From: Gammaproteobacteria bacterium
Lineage (GTDB): Bacteria > Pseudomonadota > Gammaproteobacteria > JAABTG01
NCBI GenBank assembly: GCA_034522055.1
Contig: JAXHLS010000002.1
Span: 2,356,001 to 2,420,000 of the forward strand
Direction: 5' to 3'
DNA length: 64,000 bases
The position numbers and the translations under genes were made by a program. Positions 47,095-55,898 of the stretch are shown here, piece after piece. The notes under the pieces are model-generated. The model searched no databases, was not told the DNA's origin, and was given only the letters and a program-made list of their open reading frames with translations. Numbering within the stretch: the stretch's first letter is position 1; every line of letters starts with the position of its first letter.

Positions 47095-49080
47095 GTGTCC
47101 GAGCCGCTCAATCTCAACTGGATCGTCAACTTCATCTGGGGCATCGCAGACGACGTGCTCCGGGACCTCTACGTCCGGGGCAAATACCGTGACGTCATCC
47201 TGCCCATGACGGTTCTGCGGCGCCTCGATGCCGTGCTGGAGCCGACCAAGCAGGCGGTCCTTGATATGAAGGCCTCGTTGGATGAGGCCGAAATCATCCA
47301 TCAGGATGCCGCTCTGCGGCAGGCCGCGGACCAGCCCTTCTACAACACCTCCAGGTTTACTCTGCGGGACCTTCGCAACCGCGCCAGCCAACAGGCTCTC
47401 AAGGCCGATTTCGAGGCCTATCTGGACGGCTTCTCGCCCAACGTCCAGGAGATCCTCGATAACTTCGAGTTCAGGAATCAGATACCACGGCTCTCCAAGG
47501 CCGACGCCCTCGGCACCCTGATCGAAATGTTGCTTTCGCCCGACATCAACTTGAGCCCCAAGCCCATGGTGGCCCAGGACGGCACGGTGAGGCAGCCCGG
47601 CCTCGACAACCACGCCATGGGTACCATCTTCGAGGAGCTGGTCCGGCGCTTCAACGAGGAGAATAACGAGGAGGCGGGTGAGCACTGGACGCCCAGGGAT
47701 GCGGTCAAGCTCATGGCCCGCCTGGTCTTTTTGCCCATCGCCGACCAGATCGAGGATGGCACCTATCTCCTCTACGACGGCGCCTGCGGTACCGGCGGCA
47801 TGTTGACCGTCGCCGAGGAGACCCTGCAACAACTGGCCGCCGAGCACGGTAAGCAAGTGGCCACTCACCTCTTCGGCCAGGAGATCAACGCCGAAACCTA
47901 CGCCATCGCCAAGGCCGACCTGTTGCTGCAGGGGGAGGGAGATGCCGCAGACAACCTGGTCGGCGGCCCCGAGCATTCGACGCTGTCGAACGATGCCTTC
48001 CCGTCCCGGGAGTTCGACTTCATGCTCTCCAACCCGCCCTATGGCAAGAGCTGGAAGGGCGACCTGGAGCGCATGGGAGGCAAGAAGGGCATAAAGGACC
48101 CACGTTTCGTCATCGAGCATGGGGGCGATCCGGAATACCCCCTCATCACCCGCTCCAGCGACGGCCAGATGCTGTTCCTGGCGAACATGCTTTCCAAGAT
48201 GCGGCGGGATTCCAGGCTTGGCAGCCGCATCGCCGAGGTCCACAACGGCAGCTCGCTGTTCACGGGGGACGCCGGCCAGGGCGAGAGCAACATCCGCCGT
48301 TGGATCATCGAGAACGACTGGCTCGACGCCATCGTCGCCCTGCCCCTCAACATGTTCTACAACACCGGTATCGCGACCTACATCTGGGTGCTCACCAACC
48401 GCAAGCTGGCGCATCGCAAGGGCAAGGTCCAACTCATCGACGCCACCGAGTGGTACAAGCCCCTGCGTAAGAATCTCGGCAAGAAGAACTGCGAGCTGTC
48501 CGAGGAGGACCTCCAGTGCATCTGCGATACCTTCCTCTCCTTCGAGGAGACGGAGCAATCCAGGATCTTTCCCAATGCGGCCTTCGGCTATTGGAAGGTC
48601 ACGGTGGAGCGCCCCCTGCGCCTCAAGGGCATCGACCCCGAGCGCGCTTACAAGGCCGCGGACATCAAGAAGCTGAGAGAGATCCACGAGCGGGCCGATG
48701 ATGCGCCGCCGGTCATCAAGAAGATCCACAGGAAGGGAACCCCAGCAGACCCCCTTCGGGGCCTGTTTGCAGTCACCCTTAAAGGCAAGACCGCCGTGGT
48801 GGAGTACGAGCCCGACAGCGACCTGCGCGACACCGAGCAGGTGCCTCTCATGGAGGAGGGTGGTATCGAGGCCTTCCTGCGCCGCGAGGTGCTGCCCCAC
48901 GCGCCCGATGCCTGGTACCTCGCGGACAGCGTGAAGACCGGCTACGAGATCAGCTTCACCCGCTACTTCTACAAGCCGCAGCCGCTGCGTTCGCTGGAAG
49001 AGATTCGGGCGGACATCCTGGTACTGGAGAAGGAGACCGAGGGGTTGTTGGGCGAGATCATTGGGGGGATGCCGGGTTGA
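47095..49080 (+). CDS. hsdM: Type I restriction-modification system, methyltransferase subunit M
   Basis: N6-adenine methyltransferase subunit; 661 residues. N-terminal HsdM helical domain (about 5-150). SAM motif I DGACGTGGMLTVAEE near residue 228, catalytic NPPY at residues 313-316 (MLSNPPYGKSW), and the HsdM-specific IRRWIIENDWLDAIVALPLN. The long C-terminus (from about 470) carries extra charged helices. Start is GTG at 47095, with AGGGAG about 11 bases upstream. First gene of an operon in which the S and R genes are separated by accessory genes. Confidence 0.95.
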   Translation: MSEPLNLNWIVNFIWGIADDVLRDLYVRGKYRDVILPMTVLRRLDAVLEPTKQAVLDMKASLDEAEIIHQDAALRQAADQPFYNTSRFTLRDLRNRASQQALKADFEAYLDGFSPNVQEILDNFEFRNQIPRLSKADALGTLIEMLLSPDINLSPKPMVAQDGTVRQPGLDNHAMGTIFEELVRRFNEENNEEAGEHWTPRDAVKLMARLVFLPIADQIEDGTYLLYDGACGTGGMLTVAEETLQQLAAEHGKQVATHLFGQEINAETYAIAKADLLLQGEGDAADNLVGGPEHSTLSNDAFPSREFDFMLSNPPYGKSWKGDLERMGGKKGIKDPRFVIEHGGDPEYPLITRSSDGQMLFLANMLSKMRRDSRLGSRIAEVHNGSSLFTGDAGQGESNIRRWIIENDWLDAIVALPLNMFYNTGIATYIWVLTNRKLAHRKGKVQLIDATEWYKPLRKNLGKKNCELSEEDLQCICDTFLSFEETEQSRIFPNAAFGYWKVTVERPLRLKGIDPERAYKAADIKKLREIHERADDAPPVIKKIHRKGTPADPLRGLFAVTLKGKTAVVEYEPDSDLRDTEQVPLMEEGGIEAFLRREVLPHAPDAWYLADSVKTGYEISFTRYFYKPQPLRSLEEIRADILVLEKETEGLLGEIIGGMPG

Positions 49081-49165
49081 AAGCAGCAGCTGCATACGCC
49101 AGGCGACTTACGGGCTCCGAGACTCGACAGACGCCCCGCGCAGGGTGTAACCTAAGCACTAACAA

Positions 49166-49212
49166 AACCCGCCAAGGCTATGCTCTTCGGAGTACCCTCA
49201 AACCGGCGGGTT
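49166..49212 (+). ncRNA. Structured RNA upstream of the Abi_2/AbiF gene (AbiF-RNA-like)
   Basis: AACCCGCC at 49166-49173 pairs perfectly with GGCGGGTT at 49205-49212. Inside, TGCTC (49181-49185) and GAGTA (49190-49194) form a second stem capped by a TTCG tetraloop. It begins 69 bases before the Abi_2 gene. A family of structured RNAs (the AbiF RNA motif) is known to sit just upstream of AbiF-type genes and is thought to act with them. I match it by position and structure only; I could not run a covariance model. It could otherwise be a terminator for hsdM, but only a weak T-run follows. Confidence 0.6.
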
Positions 49213-49234
49213 ACTTGTTTCTGGGGTCGCTGCG

Positions 49235-50167
49235 GTGACCCGCCGGTTCCGCAAGCCCCCGCTTTCCTACCGCCAGCAGCTCGAATTGCTCATCGAACGC
49301 GGTCTGATCGTTGACGATCCCGCCGAAGCGCAGTTCTACCTGCAGCACCTGAACTACTATCGTTTGGGCGCCTACTGGCTGCCGTTCGAGGCGGACCATG
49401 GGACGCATCAGTTCAGACCCGGCACGCGGTTCAGCGAGATTCTGAATCTCTACGTCTTCGATCGCGAGCTGCGGCTGCTGGTGATGGATGCGATTGAGCG
49501 CGTGGAGGTATCGATCCGCAGCCACTGGGCCTACCAGCTCGCCCGTCTGCACAATCCACACGCGCATCTGGACCCCGCACTCGCCCGGCGCAGGGATCGC
49601 TGGCAGCAGAATCTGGCGAGCTTGACCGACGAAGTGAACCGTTCGGACGAGGTCTTCATCGAACACTTCCGGACCACTTACCAGGAAGCACTACCGCCCG
49701 TCTGGGCAGTGTGTGAAGTCATGTCGTTGGGACAGCTTTCGCGCTGGTACGCAAACCTCAGGCCGAAGGCGACTCGGCGTGCAATAGCAGACGTTTATCA
49801 CACGGACGAAGGTCTCCTGCAATCCTGGCTGCATCACCTGAGCCACGTTCGCAATGTCTGCGCGCATCACAGTCGGCTGTGGAACCGGGAATTCACGATT
49901 ACACCCAAGCCACCGCGGACCAAACCCTCTGGTCTGGACACACAATGGGCGCACGGTTCTCGCAAGCTTTACAACAGCCTCGTCGTGCTACTCCATTGCA
50001 TGGACATCGTGTCGCCCGGCCATCACTGGTGCACCCGGCTGCGGGAGCTTGTAGCACACCACGGCATCGACACAGCCGCTATGGATTTCCCATCCGACTG
50101 GCAGGCCTGGTCGATCTGGCGCACGATCAGCAAGCAACCTACCGGGAACGGTGGAGGTGACAGTTGA
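49235..50167 (+). CDS. Abi_2 / AbiF-like abortive-infection protein (HEPN)
   Basis: Abi_2-family protein (AbiD/AbiF group) of 310 residues. N-terminal family segment [19 protein letters not shown] and [17 protein letters not shown]. Then [20 protein letters not shown], and [15 protein letters not shown]-x4-H motif RNVCAH (R206, H211), followed by HSRLWNR. This motif is the RNA-cleaving centre in HEPN toxins and in Cas13. GTG start at 49235. It is preceded by a structured RNA and overlaps the next HEPN gene by one base. Probable role: RNA-targeting phage defence under control of the upstream RNA. Confidence 0.88.
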
Positions 50168-50973
50168 TGGCCAAAGTTCCGTGCTTTCCAGAAGGGCAAG
50201 TTGAAGCTTTGGCCCGAGCGCTCGGCGAGTGCGGATCGGGAACCGACATCAGCCCCGTGTTCCAAAATCGCGGCCTCGCCGACAACTCCAGTGAATCGAC
50301 GAAAAGGCGTCGACTCTACTGGTTGTTTCTGGATTGCCAGAACCGTAGCGGCTGCGCTAATCAGGTCATCGACGTCATTCGTGCGTTCCTGACGCCAGCG
50401 CGATTCGTCGGGCGAAGCGAGGCGTTCGGAGCGCATCGGCAGAACTTGAATATGATTCTGGCCTTCTCAGGGCTCGACTACGGTTCGGACGAGCAGTTCC
50501 GCAAGGTCGATCCAGCCACCACGATCGATGAGGCGGAGCGACGAGTACGCACGATCCGCGCAAAGTTTCAGGGTCGGCGTATGCACCCCGAGGTCGTCAA
50601 GTACTGCCGTTCCGAACTCCTGCAGGACAACTACTTCCACGCCGTGTTCGAGGCTACCAAGGGCCTTGCCCAACGGGTTCGAGATATGACCAGGAATCCT
50701 GGCGGACGACACCCATCTGATCGATCGGGTGTTGCCGCCGAACGGCCGATGCTGGCCATGAACACTCTACAGACCGAAACCGAGAAGTCCGAGCACAAGG
50801 GTTTCGCCGCGCTGCTGAAAGAATGCATCGCGGCCGTTCGCAATCCGCTCGCTCACGAGCCGAAGATTCTCTGGGAGGGAGAAGACGACGCGGCCGACTA
50901 CCTGTCACTGATCTCGCTGCTGCATAGGAAGCTCGACCAGTGCGTGCCGACCAGGCTGGGTGAAGCGCAGTGA
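50167..50973 (+). CDS. TIGR02391-like protein with a HEPN R-x4-H motif
   Basis: 268 residues. Resembles the TIGR02391 (Ymh) family of uncharacterised proteins, often found in RM and phage contexts. Conserved C-terminal region from about residue 130: HPEVVKYCRSELLQDNYFHA, VFEATKGLAQRVRDMT, and the HEPN-type motif RNPLAHEPK (R225, H230). The N-terminal part (YWLFLDCQNRSGCANQVIDV) is family-like as well. ATG at 50167 overlaps the Abi_2 stop (TGATG) and has a GGAGGTGA ribosome site. Its own stop overlaps the hsdS GTG, so all three are translationally coupled. Confidence 0.75.
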   Translation: MAKVPCFPEGQVEALARALGECGSGTDISPVFQNRGLADNSSESTKRRRLYWLFLDCQNRSGCANQVIDVIRAFLTPARFVGRSEAFGAHRQNLNMILAFSGLDYGSDEQFRKVDPATTIDEAERRVRTIRAKFQGRRMHPEVVKYCRSELLQDNYFHAVFEATKGLAQRVRDMTRNPGGRHPSDRSGVAAERPMLAMNTLQTETEKSEHKGFAALLKECIAAVRNPLAHEPKILWEGEDDAADYLSLISLLHRKLDQCVPTRLGEAQ

Positions 50974-52406
50974 TTCCCGACCTCAAACCGTATGCCGCCA
51001 TGAAGGACTCCGGCGTGCCCTGGCTGGGGAAAGTGCCGGAGCATTGGGAGATTCGACCGATCGCGCGCATGGGCCAGCTATTCAAAGGCAAAGGTGGCAA
51101 TAAAGAAGATGAGGTTGTGGAAGGCGTGCCCTGTGTCCGCTACGGAGACCTCTACACGCGACACGAGTTCTTCATCCGGTCGACGAAGGCCGATGTCTCG
51201 GCTGAAAGAGCGTCAGCGTACACACCGATACAGTTCGGTGACCTCCTATTCGCGGCTAGCGGAGAGACTATTGAAGACATAGGCCGTTCAGCAGTGAACC
51301 TTCTGACTGGATCAGCCTGTTGTGGCGGTGACGTTTTGGTTTTTCGACCTTTGATTCCCATAGAGCCTCGCTTTCTCGGCTACGCGGCAGACGCTCCACC
51401 GGCTCGACATCAAAAGGCGGGCATGGGCCGAGGCTTCACGGTCGTTCACATCTATGGTTCGCAACTGAAGCGCCTTATGTTGCCTCTCCCACCCCTCCCC
51501 GAACAAGTCGCCATCGTCCGCTACCTCGACCACATGGACCGGCGCATCCGGCGCTATATTCGCGCGAAGCAGAAGCTGATCAAGCTGCTGGAGGAGCAGA
51601 AGCAGGCCATCATCCATCGCGCCGTCACCCGCGGCCTCGACCCCAACGTCCGCCTCAAGCCCTCCGGCGTGGAGTGGTTGGGGGATGTGCCGGAGCATTG
51701 GGAAATCAAGCGAGGAAAGTACTATTTTCGTGAAATCGACATCAGAAGTGGCGCTGGCCAAGAAGAACTTCTGTCAGTGTCTCACATTACGGGTGTGACT
51801 CCGCGCAGTCAGAAGAACATCACCATGTTCAAGGCTGAGTCGTATGTAGGATCGAAAATCTGTACCCCCGGGCAGATTGCCGTCAACACGATGTGGGCTT
51901 GGATGGGAGCGATCGGCGTTTCGGGCTATCACGGACTCATCAGCCCTTCTTACCACACGTATGAGCAGATCGATTCAGGTAGGTTCGCCGATGAGTACTT
52001 GGACCTTCTGTTGCGGACGACGCTGTACAAGAACTTCTACACGGCTAATTCCAGTGGCATAACGACAAGCCGGTTGCGCCTGTACCCAGATGACTTTCTA
52101 AATATCCGCTTCCTCTGCCCTCCGCGCCCAGAACAGGACGCGATTCTAGAGTGGCTTCATGACGCCACCGCCGATATCGACGCTACTATCGGCCGGGCTA
52201 GTCGCGAGATCGGACTCCTCCGCGAATACCGCACACGCCTGATCGCCGACGTTGTCACCGGCAAGCTCGATGTACGGGAGGTGGCGGCACGGCTCCCTGA
52301 TGAGGCAGAGGAACCTGAGGTTTTCGATGATGCCGACGCCATGGACAGCGCCGATGGAATTGAGAGCGATGAATTCGATGCGACCATTAAAGAGGCCGAG
52401 ACATGA
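50970..52406 (+). CDS. hsdS: Type I restriction-modification system, specificity subunit S
   Basis: DNA-recognition subunit of 478 residues. Two target-recognition domains, each opening with the same pattern: DSGVPWLGKVPEHWEIR near residue 10 and PSGVEWLGDVPEHWEIKRG near residue 230. Central conserved helix with PLPEQVAIVRYLDHMDRRIR, and the distal one with PEQDAILEWLHDATADIDAT. The last 40 residues are acidic. GTG start within GTGA, overlapping the previous stop. Its ATGA stop overlaps the next frame. Confidence 0.94.
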   Translation: MIPDLKPYAAMKDSGVPWLGKVPEHWEIRPIARMGQLFKGKGGNKEDEVVEGVPCVRYGDLYTRHEFFIRSTKADVSAERASAYTPIQFGDLLFAASGETIEDIGRSAVNLLTGSACCGGDVLVFRPLIPIEPRFLGYAADAPPARHQKAGMGRGFTVVHIYGSQLKRLMLPLPPLPEQVAIVRYLDHMDRRIRRYIRAKQKLIKLLEEQKQAIIHRAVTRGLDPNVRLKPSGVEWLGDVPEHWEIKRGKYYFREIDIRSGAGQEELLSVSHITGVTPRSQKNITMFKAESYVGSKICTPGQIAVNTMWAWMGAIGVSGYHGLISPSYHTYEQIDSGRFADEYLDLLLRTTLYKNFYTANSSGITTSRLRLYPDDFLNIRFLCPPRPEQDAILEWLHDATADIDATIGRASREIGLLREYRTRLIADVVTGKLDVREVAARLPDEAEEPEVFDDADAMDSADGIESDEFDATIKEAET

Positions 52407-52789
52407 GCGTCGATCTCGTCGCAATGGTCGATCGCCTGCGCGGTCTGCCGACCGAGACGGAGTGGCTTGAGTTCAAGCGTAACCGCTATGATCCCCAGGA
52501 AATAGGCGCATACCTTTTCGCCCTGGCCAACGCTGCTTGCCTCGCAAACCAGCTGCGCGACTATCTGGTCTTTGGCATCTCAAGGATGAGCGAGCAAATA
52601 ATTGCCATAGAAGCCAGTGGTTCTAGCAAAGCCGAGCATGTATTTGGCTTATTTATCAATAAGATGGGTCTTTGCTATAACCAAGCTAGAACATGCGAAG
52701 TTAGCAAAGGATTAAGCAAAGGCCGGCTTTTCGAGCAGGCGCAGCCCTTGTTTGACCATTGCTTGACAGGCGGGCTCTCAGACGTCTGA
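52403..52789 (+). pseudogene. Truncated AlbA_2-type (schlafen-like) gene between hsdS and hsdR
   Basis: 128-codon frame. The first 65 residues look like the start of an AlbA_2 domain: LPTETEWLEFKRNRYDPQEI, then GAYLFALANAACLANQLRDY and LVFGI. From about residue 66 the sequence no longer resembles the family, becomes visibly AT-richer, and stops; normal members are several hundred residues. I read this as a 5' remnant joined to unrelated DNA. ATG overlaps the hsdS stop, so the frame is translated or was until recently. The 10-mer ATTGCTTGAC occurs at 52758-52767 and again at 52836-52845 nearby. Confidence 0.6.
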
Positions 52790-52907
52790 CTGGCCCAGCA
52801 CTTGCGATGCAAATTAATAGGATAAGCTCATTCCGATTGCTTGACGGTTGCTTGATCAAACCCATCGACGGCGAGGTGCCCGTGAGCGCCAGGAGAAAGG
52901 AACCTCG

Positions 52908-55898
52908 ATGACTACGGATACCAGCGAGAGCGGGCTCGAAGCCCTCATCTGCAAGGCGCTGACGGGGCATCCCTGCGATCCGCTACCCGCCGCCGCGGTC
53001 AAGCGGCCGGAGGTCCCCTACGGTGGTACCGGCTGGATCGGCGGTTACGCTCAGGACTACGAGCGCGAGTACGGCGTCGATCTCTATCAGCTGTCCGCCT
53101 TCTTGCGGCAGACCCAGCCGGACACGGCCGAGGCCCTTGACCTTGGCGATGATAGCCCGGTTCGCCGCAAGTTCCTGGCCCGCCTCCAAGGGGAGATCAC
53201 CAAGCGAGGCGTGATCGACGTGCTGCGACACGGCGTGGGCCACGGACCCCATCACTTCGACCTCTTCTACGGCACGCCGAGTACAGGAAACGAGAAGGCG
53301 GCGGAACGATATGCCCGCAACCGTTTCAGCGTCACCCGGCAGCTCCGCTACAGCGGGGACGAGGCGCAGCTGGCCTTGGACCTGGGGCTGGTCATCAACG
53401 GGCTACCCGTGTTCACCTTCGAACTCAAGAACTCCCTCACCAAGCAGACCGTGGAGGACGCGGTGGAGCAGTACAGGCGGGACCGCAATCCGCGCGAGCT
53501 GCTATTCCAGTTCGGTCGCTGTATCGCGCATTTCGCGGTCGACGACCAGGAGGTCCAGTTCTGCACCCACCTCAAGGGCAAGGCCTCGTGGTTCCTGCCG
53601 TTCAACAAGGGCTGGAATGACGGTGCCGGCAACCCGCCGAATTCGGAAGGCCTCAAGACCGATTACCTGTGGAGGGATGTGCTGACGCCGGGCGGACTGA
53701 CCGACATCCTGGAGAACTATGCCCAGGTGGTGACGGAGAAGAACCTGAAGACCGGCAAGTCGAAGTCAGTACAGATCTTTCCCCGTTACCACCAGCTCGA
53801 TGTGGTGCGGAAGCTGCTGGCGGATGTGGAGGCAAGAGGTGCCGGCAGGCGCTACCTGGTCCAGCACTCGGCCGGCAGCGGCAAGTCCAACTCTATCGCC
53901 TGGCTGGCACACCAGCTCATCGGTTTGGCGAGGGAGGGGGTGGAAGTCTTCGACTCCATCATCGTGGTCACCGACCGGCGCATCCTCGATAAGCAGATCC
54001 GTGACACCATCAAGCAGTTCGCCCAGGTGAAGTCGACGGTGGGGCACGCGGAGCACTCCGGTGACCTGCGCGGGTTCATCCAGGGGGGCAAGAAGATCAT
54101 CATTTCAACGGTGCAGAAGTTCCCGTTCATCCTTGACGAGATCGGGAGCGAGCACCGGGGCCGTAGGTTTGCCATCATCATCGACGAGGCCCACTCCAGC
54201 CAGGGTGGCAAGACCTCGGCGGCCGTTTCTATGGCCCTTGCCGAGAGCGGAGAGAACGACGACGAGGAAACGCCCGAGGACCGCATCAACCGCATCATGG
54301 AGGCGCGCAAGATGCTGCCGAATGCCAGCTACTTCGCGTTTACGGCCACGCCGAAGAACAAGACCCTGGAGATATTCGGCGAGGCCGATCCGCAGCCAGA
54401 CGGGCGCGTCAAACACCGGCCTTTCCACAGCTACACCATGAAGCAGGCCATCGAGGAGGGTTTCATCCTGGACGTGTTGAAGTACTACACGCCGGTAAAC
54501 AGCTACTACAAGTTGGTCAAGACCGTCGAGAGCGATCCGGAGTACGACACCAAGCGCGCAAGAAAGAAGCTGCGCCGCTACGTGGAGAGTCATGATCATG
54601 CCATCCGACTGAAGTCCGAGATCATGGTGGATCACTTTCACGAGCAGGTGGTGGCGCTGAACAAGATTGGCGGCCGGGCGCGGGCCATGGTGATCACCAA
54701 TGGGGTGGATCGTGCCATCCGGTACTTCCATGCCTTTCGCGCTTACCTCGGAGAGCGCAAGAGTCCTTATGCGGCAATCGTCGCCTTTTCGGGTGAACAT
54801 GAATACGGCGGCGACAGGGTGACGGAGGCGTCGCTCAACGGGTTCCCATCCAACCTCATACCCGACAACATCCAGGAAGACCCCTACCGATTCCTGATCT
54901 GTGCGGACAAGTTCCAGACGGGCTACGACGAACCGCTCCTGCATACCATGTACGTTGACAAGACCCTGTCGGGCATCAAGGCGGTGCAGACCCTGTCACG
55001 CTTGAACCGCGCGCATCCGAAGAAGCATGACGTGTTCGTGCTGGACTTCATGAACGACGCGGATACCATCGAGGCGGCTTTCTCCGACTTCTACCGGACG
55101 ACCCTCCTCAGCGAAGAGACCGACCCGAACAAGCTCCACGATCTCAAGTCGGCACTCGATGGCTACCAGGTGTATGACCAGGGCCAGATCGATGGCATGG
55201 TGGATCAATACCTGGCGGGCGCCGAGCGCGATAAGCTGGATCCCATCCTCGATGCCTGCGTGGCCACCTATAACGACGAACTCGACGAGGACGGCGAGGT
55301 GGACTTCAAGGGCAAGGCCAAGGCCTTCGTTCGGGCCTATGGCTTCCTTGCGGCCATATTGCCCTACACCAATGCGCAGTGGGAGAAGCTCTCGATCTTC
55401 CTCAACTTCCTGATACCCAAGCTGCCGGCACCCAAGGAAGAAGATCTCTCAAAGGGCATCCTGGCAGCCATCGATATGGACAGCTATCGGGTGGAGAAGC
55501 AGGCAGCCCTGAAGATCCAGCTCCCCGACCAGGAGGCAATGATAGAGCCCGTCCCAACGACCGGAGGCGGCGCCAGGGGCGAGCCGGAGCTGGAGCGGCT
55601 CTCGAATATCCTGAAGACCTTCAACGACCAGTTCGGCAACATCAAGTGGACTGATGCCGACAGGGTGCAGAAGCTGATTACCGAGGAAATCCCCGCGAGG
55701 GTGGCGGCGGACACTGCTTATCAGAACGCGAAGAAGAACTCCGGCAAGCAAAACGCCCGCATTCAGCATGACAAGGCGTTGGCCCGTGTGATGATAGAGA
55801 TCCTTAAAGACGATACCGAACTCTTCAAGCAGTTCAGCGACAATGACTCGTTCCGCAAGTGGCTCGCGGATACGGTGTTTCAGCAGACTTATGCTTAG
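52908..55898 (+). CDS. hsdR: Type I restriction-modification system, restriction subunit R
   Basis: ATP-dependent translocase and endonuclease of 996 residues. N-terminal PD-(D/E)XK nuclease region with LVINGLPVFTFELKN (ELK). Superfamily 2 helicase motifs: HSAGSGKSNSIAWLAHQL (Walker A), IIIDEAHSSQGGK (motif II, DEAH), FTATPKNKTLEIFG (motif III), TGYDEPLLHTMYVDK, and TLSRLNRAHPKK (motif VI). The C-terminal helical domain binds the M/S complex. ATG at 52908 with AGGAGAAAGGAA upstream. It appears intact, so the RM system should be functional if hsdS is. Confidence 0.96.
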   Translation: MTTDTSESGLEALICKALTGHPCDPLPAAAVKRPEVPYGGTGWIGGYAQDYEREYGVDLYQLSAFLRQTQPDTAEALDLGDDSPVRRKFLARLQGEITKRGVIDVLRHGVGHGPHHFDLFYGTPSTGNEKAAERYARNRFSVTRQLRYSGDEAQLALDLGLVINGLPVFTFELKNSLTKQTVEDAVEQYRRDRNPRELLFQFGRCIAHFAVDDQEVQFCTHLKGKASWFLPFNKGWNDGAGNPPNSEGLKTDYLWRDVLTPGGLTDILENYAQVVTEKNLKTGKSKSVQIFPRYHQLDVVRKLLADVEARGAGRRYLVQHSAGSGKSNSIAWLAHQLIGLAREGVEVFDSIIVVTDRRILDKQIRDTIKQFAQVKSTVGHAEHSGDLRGFIQGGKKIIISTVQKFPFILDEIGSEHRGRRFAIIIDEAHSSQGGKTSAAVSMALAESGENDDEETPEDRINRIMEARKMLPNASYFAFTATPKNKTLEIFGEADPQPDGRVKHRPFHSYTMKQAIEEGFILDVLKYYTPVNSYYKLVKTVESDPEYDTKRARKKLRRYVESHDHAIRLKSEIMVDHFHEQVVALNKIGGRARAMVITNGVDRAIRYFHAFRAYLGERKSPYAAIVAFSGEHEYGGDRVTEASLNGFPSNLIPDNIQEDPYRFLICADKFQTGYDEPLLHTMYVDKTLSGIKAVQTLSRLNRAHPKKHDVFVLDFMNDADTIEAAFSDFYRTTLLSEETDPNKLHDLKSALDGYQVYDQGQIDGMVDQYLAGAERDKLDPILDACVATYNDELDEDGEVDFKGKAKAFVRAYGFLAAILPYTNAQWEKLSIFLNFLIPKLPAPKEEDLSKGILAAIDMDSYRVEKQAALKIQLPDQEAMIEPVPTTGGGARGEPELERLSNILKTFNDQFGNIKWTDADRVQKLITEEIPARVAADTAYQNAKKNSGKQNARIQHDKALARVMIEILKDDTELFKQFSDNDSFRKWLADTVFQQTYA

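Follow-up and report, generated by a model that had tools for sequence, protein, structure and literature searches.

The structured RNA directly upstream of an abiF (Abi_2) gene in the window, a 64,000-nt stretch of a Gammaproteobacteria bacterium genome (contig JAXHLS010000002.1), is very probably the antitoxin of the AbiF encoded 22 nt downstream, judging by homology to related systems. Free-standing RNAs of the abiF type also occur in unrelated phages, often within tRNA arrays, and these probably represent a widespread counter-defense, decoys that copy the AbiF antitoxin. What the sequences show directly is the structure of the RNA, the covariation within it, its association with AbiF genes, and the existence of phage copies that lack the gene.

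The structured core occupies positions 49166–49212 of the forward strand and is built as the first-pass annotation had described it, down to the base: a perfect 8-bp outer stem (AACCCGCC, 49166–49173, paired with GGCGGGUU, 49205–49212) encloses a 5-bp apical hairpin capped by UUCG (UGCUC, 49181–49185, with GAGUA, 49190–49194), and 22 nt separate the 3′ arm of the outer stem from the GTG start of abiF at 49235. Two features absent from that annotation complete the structure, namely a 3-bp middle helix (49175–49177 with 49196–49198) and an unpaired strand, CAAACC (49199–49204). The 47-nt element folds at −19.2 kcal/mol (z = −2.98), and none of 200 shuffled sequences folded equally well. We place the predicted abiF-type antitoxin RNA at 49161–49219 on the forward strand, using the promoter register and the U-rich tail as guides to its putative ends.

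A single protein search yielded 40 loci with AbiF relatives (48–73% identical) from several phyla, and an abiF-type RNA lies directly upstream of the AbiF gene in all 40, in diverged or shortened form at two of them (L030 and L038). The outer stem and the motifs AAGGCU and CCUCAAA are nearly invariant across homologues, while the apical stem and tetraloops vary, with UUCG and GNRA-type tetraloops interchanging. Among 38 distinct homologue rows, 97.2% of cells are paired, compared with at most 49% when the structure is slid along the alignment, and five of the 16 pairs change on both sides. These two-sided changes amount to 19 cells, versus 3.4 in shuffled alignments, so that the search for compensatory changes upstream of homologues, proposed earlier as a check on the element, came out in its favor.

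A covariance model made from the RNAs of homologous AbiF loci (R1) matched the whole genome once, at the window element (85.6 bits over 49159–49223, E = 1.6e-18). When R1 alone was run on 369 and 398 other genomes, AbiF was detected by HMM at 41 of 57 loci, and the loci without AbiF were mostly weak matches. Three bacterial genome contigs (L123, L145, and L159) carry an abiF-type RNA at 50–58 bits with no AbiF detected nearby; these may be gene-less copies that belong to prophages or that lie at the edge of a contig. Two cyanobacterial annotations also deserve mention: the AbiF gene on Synechocystis 6714 plasmid pSYLA is missing from the plasmid gene table, the annotated start of the Picosynechococcus PCC 73109 AbiF appears to be 69 nt too late, and an R1-type RNA lies upstream of both genes (the pair L333 501–1385 and L332 501–1391).

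The Rfam family abiF RNA (RF03085) aligns over its full length (model positions 1–37) to 49168–49211 with 29.2 bits (E = 0.0036, 601 nt searched), below its gathering score of 37 bits, because the apical hairpin of the window RNA is longer. A default Rfam scan therefore overlooks this RNA: at the gathering cut-off, RF03085 had no match in the window or in the nine homologous AbiF loci scanned, and a search of the whole genome returned none owing to the family cut-offs. The covariance-model check suggested at first pass thus gave a divided answer, positive for position and covariation and negative for score, and we accordingly describe the element as an abiF-type subtype and not as an Rfam-threshold member. 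Of the features that define the family, the element has the position directly upstream of abiF/Abi_2, the consensus stem, and a single-stranded CUCAAA. Family and window RNA share the site before the Abi_2 gene, the outer stem, an A bulge, AG/CU pairs, and the CUCAAA strand, whereas the apical part of the window RNA is ∼7 nt longer and bears a tetraloop hairpin. The RF03085 match, the Abi_2 domain of the downstream protein, and the 40 of 40 homologous loci together bear out the initial claim of a conserved structured RNA before an AbiF-type gene, and the window element is a clear subtype of this toxin-controlling RNA. Matches to the DnaX frameshift and PVT1 families in the same Rfam scan were dismissed as chance.

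The RNA and abiF sit inside a type I restriction–modification (RM) operon, as had been noted from the sequence and as Pfam and PADLOC now confirm, with hsdM upstream and hsdS and hsdR downstream; all genes are on the forward strand. In order, these are hsdM (47095–49080; N6_Mtase 171 bits, HsdM_N 83.5 bits), the RNA, abiF (49235–50167; Abi_2 203 bits against a Pfam cut-off of 25.6, PADLOC AbiD 249 bits), a TIGR02391/Hypoth_Ymh gene (50167–50973; PF09509 116.5 bits, TIGR02391 95.8 bits), hsdS (50970–52406; Methylase_S 44.3 bits, PADLOC Specificity_I 304.6 bits), a small ORF, and hsdR (52848–55898; HSDR_N 64 bits, SWI2_SNF2 99.2 bits). The abiF stop overlaps the TIGR02391 gene by 1 nt, and the latter overlaps hsdS by 4 nt. 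AbiF, a predicted HEPN RNase toxin, is homologous over residues 5–296 to PDB 8vz6 (E = 4.6e-49), which is PbAbiF according to a review, and its R-N-x3-H motif (RNVCAH, residues 206–211) aligns with R210/H215 of that structure. The TIGR02391/Ymh gene, whose best PADLOC match is PD-Lambda-3_B (211.9 bits), has the motif RNPLAH, so that two HEPN-type genes adjoin between hsdM and hsdS. The small ORF (52403–52789) matches SLFN_AlbA_2 in part, with 20.7 bits, which falls short of the cut-off, and is probably a truncated gene.

AbiF lies in an hsd cluster at 16 of the 40 homologous loci, where identity to the window HsdM drops to 35% in some cases; no such cluster was found by this search at the other 24. 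Abi2/AbiF genes within RM operons were reported in 2013, and HEPN genes in RM operons are a known theme (PMC3710099). The RM setting is therefore recurrent and already known.

A possible promoter of the RNA is located at 49124–49153 on the forward strand (TCGACA, 49124–49129; 18-nt spacer; TAACCT, 49148–49153). When the regions upstream of the homologues are aligned, a −10-like box recurs at a constant register together with a TTG-like −35 element (the informative columns are −13 to −7 and −35/−32), and the TAACCT box shares the register of their TATAAT-like boxes. The window promoter is weak, with a score of 2.0 against a median of 5.6 (fourth lowest of 41), and a plain consensus scan called neither a promoter nor a terminator at the window RNA. 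A U-rich tail (ACUUGUUUCU, 49213–49222, forward strand) follows the outer stem, which it would make terminator-like. Such tails are conserved among homologues, with UUUUUU in many, and the tail is interrupted in the window. Given the weak promoter match and the interrupted tail, the RNA may instead be made as part of hsdM transcripts. We also considered whether the tail is weaker in hsd-embedded copies (interrupted in 9 of 17 versus 3 of 24, p = 0.013 in a post hoc comparison that ignores kinship) and rejected this pattern, as it was absent in a second sample.

Homology to the tested Clostridioides difficile and Prevotellaceae systems makes antitoxin the most likely identity of the window RNA. 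RCd22 of C. difficile terminates before abiF, lowers abiF transcription, binds AbiF, and neutralizes it in trans, and toxicity of the C. difficile AbiF requires R202 and H207 (PMC12373285). Like the RCd22–AbiF pair of C. difficile phi027, the window locus has an RNA just 5′ of abiF and a HEPN RNase toxin, together with a promoter and terminator that are, in the window, predicted. RCd22, which belongs to a prophage lysis module, carries two abiF motifs followed by a terminator hairpin of its own, whereas the window RNA has a single motif, an outer stem that appears to be terminator-like itself, and an hsd operon as its setting. In the PbAbiF–AbiFr complex (PDB 8vz6), PbAbiF takes one RNA per monomer (PMC12737573); at the protein level it is a homologue of the window AbiF, with identical catalytic R and H. 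The relationship between such RNA–protein pairs and Cas13, invoked in the first-pass annotation, is already published (PMC12165695, PMC12373285), and type III-like inhibition by direct RNA–toxin binding is known for relatives (PMC12373285).

On this model, a promoter 3′ of hsdM would give rise to a short transcript starting near 49161, which would fold into the 8-bp outer stem, the 3-bp middle helix, and the capped apical hairpin, leaving CAAACC unpaired. The outer stem and U-rich tail would terminate most transcripts, resulting in abundant free RNA and scarce abiF mRNA. If the window system resembles its tested relatives, the free RNA would bind AbiF in trans and block the HEPN RNase site, until a phage upsets the RNA supply and the released AbiF cleaves RNA and halts infection. 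Phages may in turn reply with toxin-less copies of the RNA, often among tRNA genes, that keep AbiF blocked. Type III antitoxins such as ToxIN are encoded as tandem repeats; the window has a single motif, and the genome one R1 copy. The AbiF–RNA pair would thus work like a type III toxin–antitoxin system, minus the repeat array.

Could the window RNA be a mere hsdM terminator or a cis attenuator of abiF–hsdS, with no trans-acting RNA? Its stem and U-rich tail do stand right behind hsdM, and RCd22 too works partly via termination (PMC12373285), yet the loop and internal bases, needless for termination, are conserved like the stem, the RNA also occurs in loci without hsd genes, and phage copies in tRNA arrays retain the structure without a U-tail. 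We consider this explanation very improbable. The joint role raised in the first-pass annotation, in which the RNA would control both AbiF and the levels of hsdS/RM and the toxin might, for instance, be released once the RM operon is lost (compare PrrC in the EcoprrI locus), is compatible with the gene layout and with the antitoxin reading; it is conceivable though rather doubtful. The 1–4 nt overlaps between the abiF, ymh, and hsdS frames, the hsd clusters at 16 of 40 loci, and the known occurrence of HEPN genes in RM operons (PMC3710099) speak for such coupling; the 24 loci at which the same search found no hsd cluster speak against it, as does the failure of the U-tail difference of hsd-embedded copies to recur.

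Copies of the antitoxin-like RNA that lack a toxin gene were surveyed by pattern scans of IMG/VR followed by R1 scoring. More than 50 viral contigs carry an abiF-type RNA at 35–87 bits, and AbiF is present in only two of them (L178 and L202). When phage records with gene-less RNA were searched whole with Pfam Abi_2, none of 56 (many of them IMG/VR fragments, 16 of them complete named phages) contained the domain or a detectable AbiF remnant, and both positive controls were positive. Among the matches listed when 50,697 phage records were searched at the protein level, no AbiF came from a mycobacteriophage or cyanophage. Searching plasmids with a phage RNA gave chance matches only.

When two R1 copies were compared with phage records by BLAST, a limit of E 0.1 gave no match; shorter queries and E 10 recovered the mycobacteriophages. 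By BLAST, an R1-type RNA lies right before tRNA-Pro in 28 mycobacteriophage records, including Faith1, Bromden, and DyoEdafos, with at least 91% identity to the DyoEdafos copy. The outer stem of these mycobacteriophage copies, which were unselected for stem sequence, is CAUUGCC/GGCAAUG in place of CCCGCC/GGCGGG, a compensatory swap. Rfam-type abiF RNAs exceed the family cut-off in 12 phages (Thibault, S-SZBM1, CGphi29, PZL-Ah8, S-CREM1, LittleE, S-SRM01, Aziz, DyoEdafos, Bromden, Baka, and Snenia). DyoEdafos and Bromden match both models, and each therefore carries both RNA types. In these two phages the RNAs share one tRNA array, one before tRNA-Pro and one between tRNA-Gly and tRNA-Lys (Bromden/DyoEdafos: L288 1463–1524 and 2799–2835; L289 1474–1534 and 2829–2865). 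Many phage copies lie within tRNA arrays, and others precede capsid, connector, or terminase genes. A major capsid gene follows the RNA in Pasto (L299 1202–1237), and in two contigs (L107 1622–1686 and L116 4725–4790) an unclassified 427-aa phage protein begins 54 nt after it.

The phage copies appear, from their sequences, to be specific and conserved. Among 39 distinct phage R1-type RNAs, five outer-stem pairs change on both sides, in 25 cells versus 4.1 in shuffles; in this set pattern-fixed bases are conserved by construction, and mis-set inner columns only lower the share of paired cells. The LittleE RNA (L290 1204–1239) is identical at 41 of 42 bases to an actinomycete Rfam-type RNA (L316 2181–2216, minus strand; 47.1 bits) that precedes AbiF. 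The actinomycete copy has a U-rich tail and the LittleE copy lacks it, a difference that fits a phage requirement for the RNA but not for the attenuator. A decoy role likely extends across mycobacteriophages of several genera, cyanophages, and T7-like phages, with two RNA types in Bromden and DyoEdafos; the target of the decoys would be AbiF.

Racrs, solitary RNA mimics of CRISPR repeats with proven anti-defense activity, offer a precedent, and phages also mimic antitoxin RNAs (PMC10651486). Racrs and phage abiF RNAs are both solitary copies of a defense-system small RNA without its protein genes, Abi_2 being absent from all 56 records; Racrs have a Cas target and a tested function, whereas phage abiF RNAs have AbiF as putative target and a predicted function. 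Telling against the decoy proposal, the Rfam and R1 models find no abiF RNA in lactococcal phage sk1, a region of which protects against AbiF according to a cited 2000 study. The gene-less RNAs might instead be regulatory elements, processing sites, or leftovers of lost AbiF systems, a view to which the several copies placed just before capsid, connector, terminase, or 427-aa protein genes (L106, L107, and L116; PZL-Ah8, CGphi29, and Pasto) lend some weight. We regard it as unlikely, since unrelated phages share an almost unchanged loop on stems that covary, the genomic surroundings vary greatly from copy to copy, the 56 records showed no trace of a lost AbiF gene, and the LittleE RNA is nearly identical to the RNA of a bacterial AbiF locus.

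One such RNA, lacking its gene and placed among phage tRNA genes, has been annotated before: the available text on cyanophage S-CREM1 (PMC9964418) reports its abiF sRNA as probably functional and mentions three more phages in Rfam. That text contains no proposal of AbiF inhibition, whereas the present analysis covers many phages and two RNA types. We found no anti-AbiF RNA proposal in the papers searched, and an earlier mention in the 2025 AbiF–Cas13 study or the 2017 Rfam source paper is possible. If the decoy reading is true, these RNAs form an RNA-based inhibitor class against a relative of the Cas13 ancestor. The gene-less copies suggest that phages beat AbiF by supplying its own antitoxin, placing this RNA mimicry beside RNA anti-CRISPRs, and phage tRNA arrays may hold further anti-defense RNAs. 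The copies are exact, readily testable sequences in tractable phages, and as natural variants they could serve to map AbiF recognition.

Two further viral arrangements were observed. One viral contig carries four abiF-type RNAs as two tandem pairs, with the AbiF gene absent (L114 92–547, minus strand). In another phage contig (L098 172–614), an abiF-type RNA follows an apparent tRNA 3′ end, with a group I intron (108.7 bits) upstream.
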